DNA from: Candidatus Mcinerneyibacteriota bacterium
Lineage (GTDB): Bacteria; AUK180; JAQVHJ01
DNA length: 7,129 nt
Direction of reading: 5' to 3'
Assembly (NCBI GenBank): GCA_030630935.1
Contig: DAOVMD010000152.1
Coordinates: 1-7,129, forward strand
Each line of letters begins with the position of its first letter. The first letter of the stretch is position 1. This document shows positions 135 to 7,129 of the stretch, piece by piece. Made by a program: the position numbers and the translations under genes. The notes beneath the pieces are model-generated. The model was given only the letters and a program-made list of their open reading frames with translations. It made no database searches and had not been told where the DNA came from.

Positions 135-2738
135 ATGAGAAAAAGTTTTCTCATATTATTTATTAGTTGTATATTTGTTTTATCTTCCGCTGTGGTTTTT
201 GCTGGAACAATGGGTGGTATTCTCGGATTTATTACTTCCGACGACGGTTCACCTGTTTCCGAAGCAACAATCACAGTTGTTGAGAGGGGGTTGCAAGTTG
301 TTTCAAATGAATTTGGAATGTTTTCAATTCAATCTCTACGACCGGGAATTTATACCCTTGAAATTAAAAAAGCCGGATATGGTTCCGTAATAGTCGAGAA
401 GGTTTCAATCCAGATTAACTTGACCACATCATTTCATATCACATTGCAACAGACAGATGTTAATATTGATCCGATCATTGTAACAGCTTCTAAAATTCTC
501 ATCCACCGGGAACAGACCGGAACCGTTTATCAAGTTGATCATGATGAGATTATTGAGATGTCGTCAAGGGATATTTTCAGGGTTGCACTTGCGATGCCTG
601 GTGTAATCTCCAATGAAGATGGTCAATTTAAAATTAGAGGTTCAAGGTATGACCAGACTTTATTTATGATAGATGGTCTTTCAATTATGGATCCATTCTG
701 GAAAACTTTTGGTGCAACACCAAATGCACTTGGTATCATGGGTGAGATTTCTGTTATCACCGGTGGTTTTGATGCAGAATATGGCGATGCTCTTGGCGGT
801 ATCGTCAATGCAGTTACCCGGAATCCGAATTTAGAAGAGCATCATGGTTCATTTGTTTATAATACTTCTGATATCCCGAATTACCATGGTATGTGGGATA
901 ATTCAATTAAATTGGGTGAAGAGGAGTTCAACCTTGATATGGACGGTCCGATTTTAAAAAACCTCGGTTATGTATTTTCGGCACAAGTATTTTTAGCAGA
1001 TGCTTCAACCACCTCGGGCTATAAAAATTATAAATATGAAGAGTTTCATGATTATCATTTTAAACTTTCTTATAATTTAAGTCCAAAAACAAACTTGATG
1101 TACCATACTAACTATGGTTTTGCCTGGATTAGACTATCAAGTAGTTATGTTGGAACTTGGATGGAAGATGGCTGGCCTATTCAGAAGCAGTTCAATAGAT
1201 GGCATCATTTAATTATTGATACCTATGTCGGGAATGCAACAACAGCTACAATTGCATACGGTTGGTTTTGGTCTGGAATTGATTATGGTGCACATGATGA
1301 AGATGAAGACGGAAATATTCTCTGGAATGAGATTAGACCATTATTAGAACTTCAGCCTGGTGATTATTATGCTAATCAGAGAACCAGAAGTACAACTCAG
1401 GAATTTAAAATTGATATTAAATCCACAATTGATAATCAACACACCTTGAAATATGGTACTGCTTTCCAACATGTTTATCTTGATATGTTCTGGACAGTCT
1501 CATACGGAATGTATTGGTGGGACACCATTGAGTATTGGCCTGCATTTGCATATCTCGAAGATTGGGAAGATAGTTATGATTATACAAGCGCATATGTTCA
1601 GGATAAATTTGCTTTAATTCCTGATAAATTAACTCTTACTACCGGTATAAGGTATGAAGATTGGGGTTTTCTCCTGATAGAGCGTACTAAAATTTCACCA
1701 AGATTCGGTATCTCTTACCAGCTTGATGATTATACGGTAATTAGAACTAATTATTCTCAAATGTATCAAGCACCGAATGTTTCAGCGGTATTGGAATATG
1801 ATTCAGGTGGTATTCAAGATTACTTCTGGGGGGAAATGTCTTGGGGTTCAGATACTATTGTTCCTCAGTCAACTTCAATTATAGAATTTGGCTTACAGCG
1901 TCAGCTTGGGAAGGATTTTATTCTTGAGATTAATGCTTATAATAAACAAATGGATAAGATCCATTGTGTTTGGGAAAATCCTAAGACTTATAAAGTTGAG
2001 TATGTTAATGGTGGTGAAGGCTGGGCGCAGGGTGTTGAGTTTACATTAAGAAAAACATTATCGAAAAACGTCAAAGGTTGGGTAAACTATTCATGGATGA
2101 TTGCAAAAGGTAAGAATATTGCAAGAGATTTTTATAATAGTGATTCTGTTTATGAATATCCTGAGTTATATGATAAAGAATATTATCTTAGTTGGGACCA
2201 GAGACATAATGTAAATGTTAACCTGTTCTATTCCTCAGATAATTTCTTCATAAATGTAATCTGGAGATGGGGCAGTGGTTATCCATATACTCCCCATGAT
2301 AGATATCATGATTGGGGAGTAAATGGAAGGAATGATGATTCCGGAGCCGATGGAATTCCTGATACTTGGGATTCGGGTGAAGGCGATGGTGTTGAAAACT
2401 TTGGTGAAGTTTGGGATTATGGTGAACAAGACGGTGCATATCAAGAAGGTGAGCCTACTTGGGCTTCAAATATTCAAGCAGTATATAATACAAAGAGATA
2501 TCCGTCTTATGACAGAGTTGACGTTATTACCAAATTTAAAATGAAGAACCTTAAGCTGTTGGGAGCAGAATACTGGATTAGCTTAACTGTTAGAAATCTC
2601 TTTGATCACCATAACCTTAGACAAAGAGGTGGAAATGATCCTGCAGATATAAATCCTTATACCGGTGAACCCTGGACAAGGATTCCTACAGGAGGAACAA
2701 CAAGAAGAGTTGTAATGGGTATTGAGGCTACTTGGTAA
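135..2738 (+). CDS. TonB-dependent outer-membrane receptor with N-terminal carboxypeptidase-like regulatory domain
   Basis: An 867-residue outer-membrane active transporter energised by TonB; the substrate is unknown. I start it at 135 because AGGAGG (124-129) sits 5 nt upstream and the protein then opens with a signal peptide (MRK, hydrophobic core, cleavage likely after VFA at residue 23). The ATG at 15 would add 40 residues with no signal and bury the leader. Domains seen: a carboxypeptidase-like regulatory beta-sandwich at about 26-105; DPIIVTAS at 112-119, resembling the BtuB TonB box DTLVVTA; a plug at about 125-232 with the family hallmarks IRGSRYDQTLFMIDG and AEYGDALGGIVNAVTR; then a beta-barrel to the terminal aromatic residue (EATW). 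The barrel contains a perfect EF-hand-type loop (residues 388-399) and an acidic two-unit repeat (744-773). No SusD-like partner is in the window, so a SusC assignment is not supported. The family call is secure; the substrate is not predictable. Confidence 0.95.
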   Translation: MRKSFLILFISCIFVLSSAVVFAGTMGGILGFITSDDGSPVSEATITVVERGLQVVSNEFGMFSIQSLRPGIYTLEIKKAGYGSVIVEKVSIQINLTTSFHITLQQTDVNIDPIIVTASKILIHREQTGTVYQVDHDEIIEMSSRDIFRVALAMPGVISNEDGQFKIRGSRYDQTLFMIDGLSIMDPFWKTFGATPNALGIMGEISVITGGFDAEYGDALGGIVNAVTRNPNLEEHHGSFVYNTSDIPNYHGMWDNSIKLGEEEFNLDMDGPILKNLGYVFSAQVFLADASTTSGYKNYKYEEFHDYHFKLSYNLSPKTNLMYHTNYGFAWIRLSSSYVGTWMEDGWPIQKQFNRWHHLIIDTYVGNATTATIAYGWFWSGIDYGAHDEDEDGNILWNEIRPLLELQPGDYYANQRTRSTTQEFKIDIKSTIDNQHTLKYGTAFQHVYLDMFWTVSYGMYWWDTIEYWPAFAYLEDWEDSYDYTSAYVQDKFALIPDKLTLTTGIRYEDWGFLLIERTKISPRFGISYQLDDYTVIRTNYSQMYQAPNVSAVLEYDSGGIQDYFWGEMSWGSDTIVPQSTSIIEFGLQRQLGKDFILEINAYNKQMDKIHCVWENPKTYKVEYVNGGEGWAQGVEFTLRKTLSKNVKGWVNYSWMIAKGKNIARDFYNSDSVYEYPELYDKEYYLSWDQRHNVNVNLFYSSDNFFINVIWRWGSGYPYTPHDRYHDWGVNGRNDDSGADGIPDTWDSGEGDGVENFGEVWDYGEQDGAYQEGEPTWASNIQAVYNTKRYPSYDRVDVITKFKMKNLKLLGAEYWISLTVRNLFDHHNLRQRGGNDPADINPYTGEPWTRIPTGGTTRRVVMGIEATW

Positions 2739-2757
2739 TAGCTTCGCTTCGCTCTGC

Positions 2758-2799
2758 AAGTAAGAGTGAACAATGAAGAATGAATAATTAAGAATGATT
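2758..2799. repeat. Degenerate heptanucleotide tandem array
   Basis: Six consecutive 7-mers can be read: AAGTAAG, AGTGAAC, AATGAAG, AATGAAT, AATTAAG, AATGATT, with consensus close to AATGAAG. The middle units differ from one another by one or two bases. It begins 20 bp after the receptor stop codon. Short heptameric tandem repeats between genes are known in several bacterial groups, for example cyanobacteria. No function is implied; replication slippage is the simplest origin. Confidence 0.55.
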
Positions 2800-2810
2800 T
2801 TACTTTAGAA

Positions 2811-2851
2811 AATACAATGCACTTGTTTAGAACCTTTGATGCTTAAGGAAA
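2811..2851. repeat. Dispersed intergenic repeat, copy 1 (start of element)
   Basis: These 41 bp match 7089-7129 in the same orientation at 34 of 41 positions by hand alignment; the core 2822-2851 matches 7100-7129 at 26 of 30. Both copies are gene-free, one after the receptor and the other after the sat operon. Copy 1 runs on into the GC-rich block, so the full element is probably longer; copy 2 is cut by the window edge. A dispersed, non-coding, possibly MITE-like or REP-associated repeat is inferred. Confidence 0.6.
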
Positions 2852-2880
2852 CAATTGAATGCTTTTCTAAAAATAGCCGC

Positions 2881-2966
2881 TGACAAGCGAAGCGCAGGCA
2901 TCCCGTATGCCGAAGGCCATCGGGAAGAGAACGTCCCGAAGTGAATCCGGGATAAACTCCGGACGC
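2881..2966. repeat. GC-rich block of overlapping dyads
   Basis: A block much richer in G+C than the surrounding DNA. Dyads seen: GGCAT (2897-2901) with ATGCC (2907-2911); CCCG (2902-2905) with CGGG (2921-2924); CGGGA (2921-2925) with TCCCG (2934-2938); and TCCCG (2934-2938) with CGGGA (2948-2952). Several are mutually exclusive, so alternative folds are possible. The 9-mer AGCGAAGCG (2886-2894) is the reverse complement of 2745-2753, just past the receptor stop. It is followed by an A-rich tract (2969-3050). It looks like the body of an intergenic repeat or a structured RNA; a 79-codon open frame on the minus strand across it looks repeat-derived, not a gene. Confidence 0.45.
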
Positions 2967-3049
2967 AGAGAAAAAATAAAAACCAAAAAAAGAAACCCAA
3001 AAAAGTTAATGTATTCATTCGAAAACAAAAGAATTGTAATCCAAAAAAA

Positions 3050-3072
3050 GTAGGGGTTAAGGGCATTAACCC
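3050..3072 (+). repeat. REP-like hairpin with GTAG foot, plus orientation
   Basis: GTAG (3050-3053) is followed directly by a perfect 7-bp stem, GGGTTAA (3054-3060) with TTAACCC (3066-3072), and loop GGGCA. A GTAG tetranucleotide at the 5' foot of a hairpin is the signature of REP elements recognised by RAYT (TnpA-REP) transposases. Read on the minus strand, the same hairpin is followed after a few bases by a run of seven T, so a minus-strand terminator is an alternative reading. No RAYT gene is in the window. Confidence 0.45.
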
Positions 3073-3152
3073 TGACTAGAAGAATTTAATCCTCCCATAT
3101 GAAACCAAAACCTTTAACCAATAATTAACGGGATACTTGGTTCGTACAATAA

Positions 3153-3176
3153 GGGCGTCCGACCGGAAGCCCCTAC
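3153..3176 (-). repeat. REP-like hairpin with GTAG foot, minus orientation
   Basis: On the minus strand, GTAG (complement of 3173-3176) is followed directly by a hairpin: GGGC (3153-3156) pairs with GCCC (3169-3172), then one G-A mismatch, then TCC (3158-3160) with GGA (3165-3167) around loop GACC. It faces the plus-strand GTAG hairpin at 3050-3072, giving the inverted-pair layout of a BIME. A linked 10-bp inverted repeat, AAGGGCATTA (3059-3068) with TAATGCCCTT (3190-3199), spans the same interval. Confidence 0.45.
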
Positions 3177-3228
3177 TGTATATTCAAGATAATGCCCTTC
3201 TGCTTTTAAGGTTTTTCGTTTAAATTAC

Positions 3229-3257
3229 TTGAAACTCGTATGGACTTATGATATACT
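3229..3257 (+). promoter_or_regulatory. Sigma70-type promoter of the lipoprotein gene
   Basis: TTGAAA (3229-3234), an exact 17-bp spacer, then TATACT (3252-3257) preceded by TGA, which gives an extended -10. The predicted start is near 3264, leaving an 18-nt leader before the ATG at 3282. The spacer ends in ATGA and contains GACTTAT, as does the sat promoter. Confidence 0.7.
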
Positions 3258-3281
3258 ATAAATCAAATAATAAGGATTCGA

Positions 3282-3722
3282 ATGAAGAAAAGATATGTTT
3301 TAAGAAGATTATTTTTTTTGATTGTAAGTGTGCTGATATTTTCATTATTTATAAATGGTTGTACGAGTTCAAACCATTTTTTTAAACAGAAAAAAGAATT
3401 GAAATATCCGGAATGGCCAGGCTTGGATGAATACATTGAACATTGCGAGAGATACATTGATGATCATAATAAACAATTTCCAGATGATCAAATTACGAAC
3501 TTCCATCGAATAGGAGTTAAACCAGAGTATATAAAATGGCATTTAGAATTATATTTCTTTAATGTTAGTCACTTTGATGATTTATATATAAGTAAAATAA
3601 TGAAAATAATTAATACCGGAGATTGTGAAATATACAAGAAATATGGATCATTAGTAGTTTACATAAAATTAAACAATGCAGAAGATTTAAGGAATCATTT
3701 TTTCAAATCACTGGAGCTTTAA
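3282..3722 (+). CDS. Small lipoprotein of unknown function, probably frameshifted near its 3' end
   Basis: A 146-residue protein that I do not recognise. AAGGA (3272-3276) lies 5 nt before the ATG and a good promoter stands upstream. The N-terminus is a lipoprotein leader: MKKRYVLRR, a hydrophobic core, then a relaxed lipobox ING-C with Cys27 as the predicted lipidation site. The mature part (28-146) is soluble, charged and aromatic, with several His and Tyr residues and no recognised motif. Residue +2 is Thr, not Asp, so by the E. coli sorting rule outer-membrane placement would be expected. The frame stops at 3720-3722, but the +1 frame continues in coding-like fashion to 3831, so the native protein may have been about 180 residues. 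It stands alone between two repeat-rich stretches. Confidence 0.75.
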   Translation: MKKRYVLRRLFFLIVSVLIFSLFINGCTSSNHFFKQKKELKYPEWPGLDEYIEHCERYIDDHNKQFPDDQITNFHRIGVKPEYIKWHLELYFFNVSHFDDLYISKIMKIINTGDCEIYKKYGSLVVYIKLNNAEDLRNHFFKSLEL

Positions 3723-3831
3723 AATTTCATCTCATTCAAATAATTTTTCTGAACTTTATATGAAAATTTTTGATGATAAAAGAGTTGGTTATATTTCTTT
3801 CAGTTATCGAGTGAGATTATATGCGAATTAG
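3691..3831 (+). pseudogene. Possible out-of-frame 3' end of the lipoprotein gene
   Basis: The +1 frame relative to the lipoprotein is open from 3691 to the TAG at 3829-3831 and overlaps the end of that gene. Its translation after 3721 (KISSHSNNFSELYMKIFDD, then KRVGYISFSYRVRLYAN) has the alternating polar and aromatic texture of real protein and lacks its own start or RBS. A single-base change in the six-T run at 3698-3703, or near 3717-3724 (CTTTAAAA), would join the two frames. Either a recent inactivating mutation or a sequencing indel could explain it. In AT-rich DNA, 46 open codons can also occur by chance. Confidence 0.4.
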
Positions 3832-3871
3832 TGTGTCATGCTATAGTCCATTACAAGTCTCGTAAAAGTCC

Positions 3872-4078
3872 ATGTTAAAATATTTTTCTTTTTGTTTGTT
3901 TCTTTTTGTTCTCTTAAGTTCTCCCGATATAAAAAATCGGGATCTACTCCCTTTGGTCGCCGACCTGCTGAAGAATTTATTTTTATTTTGTTTTTTTCAT
4001 CCCGTCAATCACGTCCATCCCTGTAAAAAATTTTATCTTTTTTTTATTCTTTTTGTTTGTTTTTGTTTTCTTTCGTAA
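3872..4078. repeat. T-rich intergenic cassette with hairpin and 16-bp direct repeats
   Basis: Strongly T-biased on the plus strand. TTCTTTTTGTTTGTTT occurs at 3886-3901 and again at 4047-4062, 161 bp apart. Between them lies a perfect 7-bp hairpin, TCCCGAT (3922-3928) with ATCGGGA (3936-3942) and loop ATAAAAA, then a compact dyad GGTC/GACC (3955-3958 with 3962-3965). A 68-codon open frame spans it, but its product is a run of F, L and C from T-rich codons with no RBS, so I do not call it a gene. The layout (T-rich tract, GC-rich dyad, T-rich tract) is reminiscent of the minus-strand reading of 2881-3050, though I cannot align them convincingly. Confidence 0.45.
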
Positions 4079-4258
4079 TGAGTGATTAATGGGACTCCCT
4101 TGATAAATTTGGAAAACCTGTTTCTTTAATGACAGAAGAATGTTTTATTAATAATGTAACTAATCCTATTTACAGGATGTCCCAAGTTATCTTCTTTTGT
4201 TTTTTTCTCTGTCTTTCACTATATTCTCTTCTTCTAACAACATTTAAACGTATAAATA

Positions 4259-4272
4259 ACAAGAATTCTTGT
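4259..4272. promoter_or_regulatory. Perfect 14-bp palindrome upstream of the sat promoter
   Basis: ACAAGAATTCTTGT is fully self-complementary and is followed by the overlapping small dyad TCAC-T-GTGA (4272-4280). It sits 48 bp before the -35 of the sat promoter, roughly 85-97 bp upstream of the predicted transcription start, a position that suits an activator site better than a repressor site. No regulator is identified. Confidence 0.35.
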
Positions 4273-4320
4273 CACTGTGATACACAATTCCACTCAAACA
4301 TTGTAAACACCAAAAATCAT

Positions 4321-4349
4321 TTGACATAAGTTGACTTATATGATATACT
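4321..4349 (+). promoter_or_regulatory. Strong sigma70-type promoter of the sat operon
   Basis: Consensus TTGACA (4321-4326), an exact 17-bp spacer and TATACT (4344-4349) with an upstream TGA extended -10. The predicted start near 4356 gives a leader of about 36 nt, too short for a riboswitch. Its -10 and the ATGA before it are identical to those of the lipoprotein promoter. Confidence 0.75.
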
Positions 4350-4391
4350 TATAACTTATTTTTTTATAATATAAAAAAGGAGTTTTGAATT

Positions 4392-5543
4392 ATGATTAAG
4401 CCACATGGTGGAAAATTAGTAAATAAGATAGTAACCGGACCTGAGCGGGAAGAACTATTAAAAAAGGGTTTGGAATTAAAGAAACTTCAGCTTGACATTC
4501 ATCAATTAACAGAGCTTGAGAACATAGCAATAGGTTTATACTCCCCGATTGAAGGTTTCATGGTTCATGATGATTATATCTCCTGTGTAAAAGATATACG
4601 TCTTGAGAATGGAACGATTTGGTCGATCCCAATTGTATTATCATGTTCAAAGAATTTTTCTGACTCGATTAAAGTTGGGGAACAGATCGCATTATGTTCT
4701 GAAGATGATACCATTTACGGTATCTTAGAAGTTGAGGATATTTACACCGTAGACAAGAAATTTGAAGCCCGGAATGTTTATCTCACCGAAGAAGAGGCCC
4801 ATCCCGGAGTCAAGAATGTATACGAAAGGAAGGAAATGCTTTTAGGTGGTGAGATTCAATTATTAAACAGAGTTCAGCACCCGGATTTCAAAGATTACCG
4901 ATTAGACCCGAAGGATACCCGTAAGAAATTTGAAGAGTTAGGTTGGGAAACGATTGTAGGATTTCAAACTCGTAACCCGATTCACAGGGCTCATGAATTT
5001 ATTCAGAAGAGTGCATTACAAATTGTTGATGGTTTATTTTTAAATCCATTAGTAGGCTGGACAAAAGCAGATGATATCCCGGCAAAAACCAGAATGGAAA
5101 GTTATCTTGTGTTATTAGAAAAGTATTATCCTAAGAACCGTGTATTTTTAGCTGTCTATCCTGCAGAGATGCGATATGGCGGGCCACGTGAAGCAATTTT
5201 ACATTCCATGGTACGTAAGAACTTTGGCTGTACACACTTTATTGTTGGTCGTGATCATGCTGGAGTTGGAAGTTATTACGGAACTTATGATGCCCAGCAT
5301 ATTTTTAAACAGTTCACAAAAGAAGAGTTAGGAATAACACCACTTTGTTTTGAGCACGCATTCTACTGTAAAAAATGTGGTGAAATGGGAACTAGTAAAA
5401 CCTGTCCTCATGGCGGAGATGATCATGTTTTCCTTTCAGGAACCAAGGTCCGTGAGATGTTGAAAAATGGTGAGTATCCACCGCCTGAATTCTCAAGGAA
5501 GGAAGTAATTGAAATCTTAATAAACTCAATGAAAGATAAATAA
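4392..5543 (+). CDS. sat: Sulfate adenylyltransferase (ATP sulfurylase)
   Basis: Cytoplasmic enzyme that forms adenosine 5'-phosphosulfate and pyrophosphate from ATP and sulfate, the first step of sulfate activation; it can run in reverse in sulfur oxidisers. At 383 residues it has the usual length of the single-domain Sat/Met3 type, unrelated to CysDN, and lacks a C-terminal APS kinase domain. Visible hallmarks: [11 protein letters not shown] at 192-202 (the QxRNPxHxxH active-site signature), MRYGGPREA, and GRDHAG at 286-291. A zinc site like that of Thermus-type bacterial enzymes is indicated by Cys326, Cys329 and Cys338, with His340 or His345 as the likely fourth ligand. The conserved SGTKVREML follows. 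AGGAG (4378-4382) lies 9 nt before the ATG. It is first in an operon with the hydrolase 16 bp downstream. Sequence alone does not decide between assimilatory, dissimilatory and sulfation roles; no APS reductase or APS kinase is visible. Confidence 0.96.
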
Positions 5544-5559
5544 GGAGAATTTTCAAATA

Positions 5560-6948
5560 ATGTCAAAGAAGAAAGTATTTGTAATAGGGCTTGATTGCGC
5601 CACCCCTCAAATTGTATTTGAAGAGTATCGGGATAAACTGCCAAACTTGAATTCACTAATGACTAAGGGTTGTTTTGCAAAAATGAACAGTACAATTCCT
5701 GCGATCACAGTTCCGGCCTGGTCCAGTATGATGAGCGGTCGTGATCCGGGAGAGTTAGGATTTTATGGTTTCAGGAATCGAAAAGATAGAACTTATGAGA
5801 ACCTGGTTTTTGCAAATTCTTCATTCATCAAATTCAAAAGAGTTTGGGACTACCTCACTTCTGCCGGGAAAAAATCTATTGTACTTGGAGTTCCCCAGAC
5901 ATATCCGCCGTCAAAAATTAACGGTTATATGGTCTCGAGTTTTTTAACTCCTGATATTAACTCTAACTACACATACCCGACTGAATTTAAAGATGAAGTC
6001 AAGGAAGCTACAGATGGGTACATGATAGACGTGGATAATTTCAGAACTGATGAGAAAGAGAGGTTACTTCAGGATATCTTTTTAATGACTGAAAAAAGGT
6101 TTAAACTAGTAAATCATATGCTTGATAAACATGATGATTGGGATTTCTTCATGTTTGTAGAGATGGGAGTTGATAGGATTCATCATGCTTTCTGGAAATA
6201 CTTTGATAAGAACCACCCGAAATTTGAGCCGGGAAATAAATTTGAAAATAGTATCCTGGATTATTATATCTATCTCGATAAAGAAATTGGTCAGCTCTTG
6301 AAAAAGCTTGATGATGATACAACTGTAATTGTCATATCCGATCATGGTGCCCAATCGATGATAGGCGGAATTTGCATCAATGAATGGCTGATAAAAAATG
6401 ATTATTTATCTGTCGAAGATTATCCGTCAGAAGTTACTCGAATAAATCGAATTAAAATTAACTGGAAGAAAACAAAAGCCTGGGGTTTCGGGGGATACTA
6501 TGGAAGGATTTTCCTGAATGTAAAGGGTCGTGAACCGGATGGTGTAATTCCGGAAGTAGATTATGAAAAAGTTAGAGATGAATTAATCGAGAAATTTGAG
6601 AGCATGACTGATGAAGATGGTAAATTATTAGGTACAAAAGTATTTAAACCTGAAGATATTTATCAGAAAGTAAATAATATCGCTCCTGATCTCCTGATTT
6701 ATTTTGGGAATTTAACCTGGCGTTCAGTCGGGAGTTTAGGTTTGAATCAAGTTTATACCTATGAGAACGATACCGGGCCGGATGACGCAAATCATGCACA
6801 GCACGGAATATTTATCGGGTACACTCCCGGGAAGGAAAGCAAAGGAGATATCGATACAATTGATATCCTGGACCTTACTCCCAGTATTTTAAAGATATTC
6901 GGTCTAAAATACCCTGAGAATTTTAAAGGTAAAGCAGTAGAATTTTAA
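5560..6948 (+). CDS. Alkaline phosphatase superfamily hydrolase (type I phosphodiesterase/nucleotide pyrophosphatase-like)
   Basis: A 462-residue metal-dependent hydrolase of the AlkP superfamily, closest in texture to the predicted phosphohydrolase/phosphomutase group (COG3379-like). All expected active-site positions are visible: Asp12 (VIGLDCATP), nucleophile Thr50 (PAITVPAW), Asp205 and His209 (VDRIHHAFW), Asp261 and His262 (SDHGA), and His415 (HAQHGIF). By superfamily precedent these bind two metal ions, usually zinc or manganese. The protein begins directly with the first core beta-strand and has no signal peptide or membrane segment, so it should be cytoplasmic, unlike classical periplasmic phosphatases. 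AAGGAG (5542-5547) overlaps the sat stop codon, 12 nt before the ATG, which implies co-transcription. The substrate is unknown. From context it may act on APS, PAPS or PAP, or on a sulfated or phosphorylated metabolite; a sulfatase role is less likely because there is no C-x-P-x-R signature. Confidence 0.88.
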   Translation: MSKKKVFVIGLDCATPQIVFEEYRDKLPNLNSLMTKGCFAKMNSTIPAITVPAWSSMMSGRDPGELGFYGFRNRKDRTYENLVFANSSFIKFKRVWDYLTSAGKKSIVLGVPQTYPPSKINGYMVSSFLTPDINSNYTYPTEFKDEVKEATDGYMIDVDNFRTDEKERLLQDIFLMTEKRFKLVNHMLDKHDDWDFFMFVEMGVDRIHHAFWKYFDKNHPKFEPGNKFENSILDYYIYLDKEIGQLLKKLDDDTTVIVISDHGAQSMIGGICINEWLIKNDYLSVEDYPSEVTRINRIKINWKKTKAWGFGGYYGRIFLNVKGREPDGVIPEVDYEKVRDELIEKFESMTDEDGKLLGTKVFKPEDIYQKVNNIAPDLLIYFGNLTWRSVGSLGLNQVYTYENDTGPDDANHAQHGIFIGYTPGKESKGDIDTIDILDLTPSILKIFGLKYPENFKGKAVEF

Positions 6949-7088
6949 TTGGTAGTGTGAAAAGTAATATGAAAGAATATGAAAAAGAAAACAGCCCCAA
7001 AAGTAGGTATATGAAGAATTTCATTTATAAGATGATTTAATATAAATCAGTTCTTTTACATATTAAGTTCTATGTTTTTGTATAACAT
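6949..7088. other. Gene-free stretch after the sat operon
   Basis: No convincing gene and no GC-rich terminator hairpin follow the hydrolase. An AT-only inverted repeat, TTAATAT (7037-7043) with ATATTAA (7060-7066), could fold weakly. A 23-codon open frame at 6969-7040 has no RBS. Confidence 0.4.
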
Positions 7089-7129
7089 AATATAATACTC
7101 TTGTTTATAACCTCTGGTGCTTAAAGAAA
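7089..7129. repeat. Dispersed intergenic repeat, copy 2 (cut by window end)
   Basis: Direct-orientation match to 2811-2851 (34 of 41 positions, no gaps). The match is still strong at the last base, so the element must continue beyond the window. Confidence 0.6.

Follow-up and report, generated by a model that had tools for sequence, protein, structure and literature searches.

Locus and repeats

The window analysed here, 7,129 nucleotides (nt) in length, is the entire contig DAOVMD010000152.1 (C66 of our genome G000), part of a fragmented metagenome-assembled genome (MAG; 3.16 Mb in 471 contigs, about 80% complete) of a Candidatus Mcinerneyibacteriota bacterium. It holds a dispersed repeat (family A) behind a TonB-receptor-like gene and, further downstream, two genes of an operon followed by a second repeat (family B), within which the contig terminates (Table 1). 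A preliminary description of this DNA had noticed that part of the second repeat resembles part of the first, and had suspected a mobile or structured element. We conclude that the window ends within what is probably a non-autonomous element derived from an IS6-like insertion sequence (IS), of which the repeat forms the left end; the transposase would target translation-initiation sites in a fixed orientation.

Table 1. Coordinates of the repeats, insertion-related features and operon genes in the window.
Feature	Position	Strand	Evidence
Family A dispersed repeat, immediately following the TonB-receptor-like gene's stop codon	2739..2863	+	26 near-full copies aligned
Module T, copy 1 (3' part of family A)	2799..2862	+	nhmmer E=1.5e-16
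sat (sulfate adenylyltransferase-like), first gene of the interrupted operon	4392..5543	+	open reading frame (ORF); 87% identical relative in L132
Phosphodiesterase-like gene (pde), 462 amino acids (aa), immediately upstream of the insertion	5560..6948	+	ORF; orthologue L132 523-1911
Left copy of the 8-bp target-site duplication TTTTAATT, including the stop codon of the upstream gene	6943..6950	+	direct reading; shuffle test
IS-derived element (family B), left part, cut by the contig end; right end on C216 (L157/L210 1-137)	6951..7129	+	inverted ends, 8-bp duplication, synteny with L132
Left terminal inverted repeat GGTAGTGTGAAAAGTA	6951..6966	+	pairs with right end ...TTTCACAGTACC
boxA-like motif AGTTCTTTTACATA (consensus of the family, AGTTCTTTGACATA)	7049..7062	+	most conserved part of left module; core as in class 16S leaders
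Module T, copy 2, cut by the contig end	7077..7129	+	nhmmer E=8.8e-9

Ends, target-site duplication and copies of the element

The window operon resumes on another contig, C216 (locus L157), which starts with a repeat ending in TTTCACAGTACC just ahead of cysC, the APS kinase gene. The terminal 12 bp of family B (GGTAGTGTGAAA) and of the C216 repeat (TTTCACAGTACC) are inverted with respect to each other and pair at 11 of 12 positions, and the same octamer flanks both sides (the window copy and L157 138-145, identical at 8/8), so that the two repeats can be assigned as the left and right ends of one insertion. A relative, MAG STE_202 (locus L132), has the operon in the order sat, pde, 22 nt, cysC and a second phosphodiesterase-like gene (pde2), where the genome of the window carries the element between pde and cysC; L132 thus represents the empty site of the window insertion, the single such site compared. 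The cluster itself (window 4392-6948 plus L157 161-2117), formed of sat, a phosphodiesterase/phosphatase-like gene, APS kinase and a second phosphodiesterase-like gene, is kept in STE_202 and would couple sulfate activation to predicted hydrolases.

We read 855 kb of the genome as contigs and found 28 left ends and 30 right ends of the element, whose copy number in the genome is about 30-45. Family B copies have a left module of about 142 bp in common, followed by at least four alternative continuations. Complete non-coding copies measure 147 (L102, plus strand, 7119-7265), 486, 720, 746 and 1,137 bp and contain no ORF longer than 85 aa, while one complete coding copy of about 1,815 bp (L102, minus strand, 2080-3896) carries an ORF at 2208-3656. 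In the 147-bp copy, a change at one end is matched at the other (GGTA/TACC to GATA/TATC). Across 26 copies, right ends share 94% identity, which points to a recent spread of the family. Duplications of the target site were also found at L050 (8/8), twice at L102 (7/8 each) and at L096 (5/8), while L104 fits a 9-bp duplication at 8/9 and L117 carries a longer direct repeat. In a shuffle test over 11 sites, taken from this genome and from the Firmicutes plasmids described below, 71 positions matched against 30.5 expected (p=5e-5). The mobile DNA with target-site duplication foreseen by the preliminary description is present in the element starting at 6951, which carries the 8-bp duplication, and not in the stretch 2811-3200 taken as a single element.

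A transposase related to the IS6/IS26 group

The ORF of the coding copy encodes a 482-aa transposase and runs antisense to the element, and therefore also to the host operon if the copy lies in one. It matches the Pfam domain DDE_Tnp_IS240 (PF13610) above the cut-off (E=1.8e-13, 51.3 bits against 27). The catalytic-type residues D300, D361 and E407 are invariant in six homologues, as are the cysteine pairs C107/C110, C151/C154 and C172/C177 of N-terminal CxxC motifs (zinc ribbons). The gene occurs once in its own genome and in none of the six class relatives examined, and full-length homologues, about 31-38% identical, lie on plasmids of Geobacillus, Pediococcus and Levilactobacillus. A sequence search of the PDB with the transposase found no relative, a scan of viral contigs for it found nothing, and reliable ends were not found in records of IS26-like and remoter IS6 elements (L243-L246). 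In one of these records, a Cetobacterium somerae plasmid (L244), a shorter IS6-type transposase gene lies antisense between two co-directional genes.

Other mobilisers were considered and rejected. An IS256-type enzyme is represented by two decayed transposase fragments only, which lack the ends of the element; Y1 transposases of the RAYT type are present, but the ends and the 8-bp duplication do not fit them. Retroposition resembling that of short interspersed elements was suggested by A-rich tails and shared 3' ends, and no RVT_1 reverse transcriptase was found in the assembly, itself about 80% complete. Integron attC sites, which adjacency to stop codons had brought to mind, were dropped in view of the inverted ends and the duplication.

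Placement ahead of translation starts

All 22 intact left ends with an identifiable previous gene lie on the strand of that gene, the distance to its stop ranging from -9 to 153 nt. This position agrees with the earlier observation that the repeat stands at the 3' side of genes. On the other side, 21 of the 30 right ends are followed by a same-strand ORF of at least 70 codons that starts 20-25 nt downstream. At positions 14-17 past the right end the consensus is GGAG (G in 77%, G in 87%, A in 73% and G in 63%), and the best match to AGGAGG begins at position 13±1 in 26 of 30 cases, with a standard deviation of 1.0 compared with 2.3 for the distance between Shine-Dalgarno sequence and ATG in this genome. 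Because the distance is constant on the right and variable on the left, the anchor appears to be the start region of the downstream gene; the insertion preference proposed in the preliminary description does exist, its target being the start of the next gene and not the 3' end of the previous one. A position about 20-25 nt ahead of a start codon corresponds approximately to the upstream edge of an initiating ribosome, and the element would accordingly spare the ribosome-binding site. At L095 (3398-3554), two right ends lie about 100 bp apart ahead of one gene, which suggests a second insertion at nearly the same start site.

A similar arrangement was observed around the Firmicutes homologues. 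The duplications TAATTATG, TGACATTC, GCCACTAG and GTTTCAGT on their plasmids all match at 8/8, and at four clear sites (Geobacillus, Pediococcus and L. brevis) the ATG lies 24, 23, 23 and 23 nt from the right end, in the same orientation. There too, the transposase gene is antisense to the downstream gene.

A boxA-like motif in the left module

The left module ends in AGTTCTTTGACATA. This boxA-like part is more conserved than the middle of the module (identity 0.957 vs 0.844; permutation p=5e-5). Because the assembly contains no 16S rRNA gene, class relatives served for comparison: one of them, G004, has the core TTCTTTGAC unchanged in its 16S leader boxA (GTTCTTTGAC), and the leaders of two others read CTCTTTGAC and CTCTTTAAC. 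Copies carry either C or T after GA, at a position that is variable in known boxA sequences as well. Judged from its sequence, the motif may limit polarity. We also considered TTTGACAT as a promoter and rejected it, a conserved -10 box being absent from the alternative continuations.

Targeting or selection

The main rival to targeting is selection acting on random insertions, in which the only survivors would be copies lodged downstream of a stop codon but upstream of the following Shine-Dalgarno sequence, and so oriented that operon transcription is not halted. Tandem gaps are short in this genome (median 14 nt), which would force insertions close to the previous stop, and an orientation-dependent signal, boxA or other, would explain the loss of the opposite orientation. 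However, the gap to the stop exceeds 20 nt for 7 of the 22 left ends, showing that room existed, whereas no scored right end lies more than 25 nt from a start; a rough simulation of uniform placement predicts that some 14 of the 22 fall within 25 nt, and all 22 never did so. Three right ends situated within non-genic repeats (L082, L102 minus strand and L199) still have GGGA(G) in register, and the Firmicutes elements, in which no boxA motif was found, show the same placement. We therefore consider random insertion followed by selection an unlikely explanation of the whole pattern.

Several observations nevertheless weigh against targeting or its details. The contigs were picked for carrying copies, genes were called by a simple method combining ORF length and a codon score, and short operon gaps together with the loss of harmful insertions could yield part of the placement. 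Each of the three non-genic sites has an ATG near 23 nt as well, and the start codon may thus belong to the target mark. The Firmicutes sites checked at both ends number five only; among the Firmicutes loci, L236 has its start at 18 or 30 nt and L235 has no duplication, and the start-codon distance is steadier than the position of the Shine-Dalgarno sequence, which leaves the exact anchor uncertain. The boxA-like motif was noticed post hoc, is missing from the Firmicutes elements, and in the window copy reads TTCTTTTAC, mutated at one conserved base. Finally, the transposase scores 86 bits against the NCBIfam IS6 equivalog NF033587, below its cut-off of 125, and is consequently not filed in the core IS6 group.

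That the repeats belong to the host, serving in 3' untranslated regions for regulation or antitermination, and are not mobile DNA is very improbable. The consistent strand, the position after stop codons and the boxA-like motif would suit such elements, but the inverted ends, target duplications, empty site and full transposase copy refute this reading as a whole explanation; a regulatory role acquired after insertion is possible.

Proposed mechanism and significance

We infer that a small element has spread through operons by targeted insertion at translation-initiation sites. The transposase would pick such sites by their G-rich Shine-Dalgarno sequence, probably together with the start codon, and insert the element at the upstream edge in a fixed orientation, whereby the operon genes would retain their ribosome-binding sites. 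More speculatively, the boxA-like motif near the left end could recruit NusB/S10 and let transcription cross the untranslated element without Rho termination; such a putative antitermination role would explain how an untranslated insert of 0.5-1.8 kb is tolerated within an operon. Host transcription may in addition yield RNA antisense to the transposase gene. A more general proposal is that translation-initiation DNA is recognised by an IS clade distributed over at least two phyla, which inserts in a single orientation at a fixed distance of some 23 bp ahead of start codons, with a boxA antiterminator added here to make it compatible with operons; we put this forward tentatively, as a plausible generalisation that we would not yet count on.

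Gaps within operons are among the riskiest places for mobile DNA. If the proposal is true, an element that finds its landing place by the ribosome-binding site would represent a novel form of safe-haven targeting, with a logic comparable to that of transposons using tRNA genes or terminators, and both the choice of such a site by a DDE transposase and the escape of untranslated insertions from Rho-dependent polarity would become directly testable. The literature consulted, mostly without subscription papers, contained no report of insertion sequences targeting ribosome-binding sites or carrying boxA. For the long bacterial IS6 members, a 2019 review reports finding no experimental data (PMC6807381), so even basic tests would be new.

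The repeat shared by families A and B

The likeness between positions 2811-2851 and 7089-7129, identical at 34 of 41 positions without gaps, was confirmed: in 200 first-order Markov resamplings of the window, the best match to the terminal 41-mer averaged 23.0 and reached 27 at most, and the next-best match in the actual window is 23. The common unit, module T, is longer than first described (2799-2862 vs 7077-7129), measures about 65 bp and has a natural 3' end in ...CAATTGAATGC (2863). Queried against the genome, 2740-3290 matched partially at about 90 places and 6949-7129 at about 52, and module T alone has 106 matches in the sampled contigs, in line with the dispersed repeat and the further copies that the preliminary description had anticipated. 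Family A, about 125 bp long, starts with GCATCGCTTCGCTCTGC, contains 7-bp repeats akin to AATGAATAATGAAG and terminates in T; as a first module, it often begins at a stop codon and is followed by other dispersed modules in variable order.

Module T is common to both families, being a separate dispersed repeat that lies in the interior of some family B copies. Each of the two places in the window is thus part of a larger unit of its own, family A in one case and the IS-derived element in the other, and they are not copies of a single unit, as had been supposed. Nor does the DNA past 7129 appear to continue like 2864-2966: homologous full copies (L089) reach CAATTGAATGC and then diverge into a different module, which sets the end of the shared part at about 2863. 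RNAalifold revealed no conserved structure in family A (26 sequences), the left-end module of family B (28 sequences) likewise showed none, covarying pairs were absent from both, and Rfam gave no match; a structured RNA was accordingly rejected. The reading of about 2811-3200 as a single mobile or structured element, with its second copy at the window end, is refuted, even though T occurs at both places: sub-parts of 2740-3290 are found separately in the genome, making this stretch a mosaic, no conserved structure was found, and copies of the second repeat continue differently.

Intergenic DNA throughout the genome (for example L050 5830-6965 and window 2864-3281) is pieced together from at least 15 dispersed modules, many of which consist of 7-10-bp units with A-rich tails (CACTGAACACACTGATCACACTG, GACGCAGAG, GAGAACTAAC, CATGAAGAA). 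GTAG-type palindromes resembling repetitive extragenic palindromic (REP) elements lie in the window at 3047-3076 and 3146-3181 (AGTAGGGGTTAAGGGCATTAACCC; AATAAGGGCGTCCGACCGGAAGCCCCTACTGTA).

Comparison with known systems

Short non-coding copies that share the ends of an autonomous element and its target duplications, such as the 147-bp copy, recall miniature inverted-repeat transposable elements; unlike these, most copies here measure 486-1,137 bp, have interiors made of other dispersed repeats, and are fixed in orientation and operon position. GTAG palindromes of the REP/RAYT type and three Y1 transposase genes (L133-L135) occur in this genome, but they are modules separate from the element, which has DDE-type ends and an 8-bp duplication. 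The boxA-like motif has the same core as the boxA of rRNA leaders, but it lies in a mobile element between protein genes, where its function is putative.

The closest comparison is with the long zinc-finger group of IS6/IS26, described as clade VIII by Harmer and Hall 2019 (ISTet2, ISHahy6 and ISHco2; PMC6807381) and as clade i by Varani 2021 (PMC7986276). By size, zinc finger and duplication, the transposase would fit this clade. Both have an IS240/IS6-type DDE domain with CxxC motifs upstream, an extra N-terminal part, an 8-bp duplication and ends starting with GG. The element here is slightly larger (1,815 bp and 482 aa vs 1,713-1,761 bp and 453-454 aa), and its ends read GGTA(C/G)TGTGAAA, compared with GGTTCTGTTGCAAA in the clade; GGTACTGTGAAATG agrees with this core consensus at only 8/14 positions. 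It differs from the clade in its host outside Firmicutes, its dozens of non-autonomous copies and its boxA-like motif, and also in its placement ahead of translation starts, which the consulted parts of PMC6807381 and PMC7986276 do not mention.

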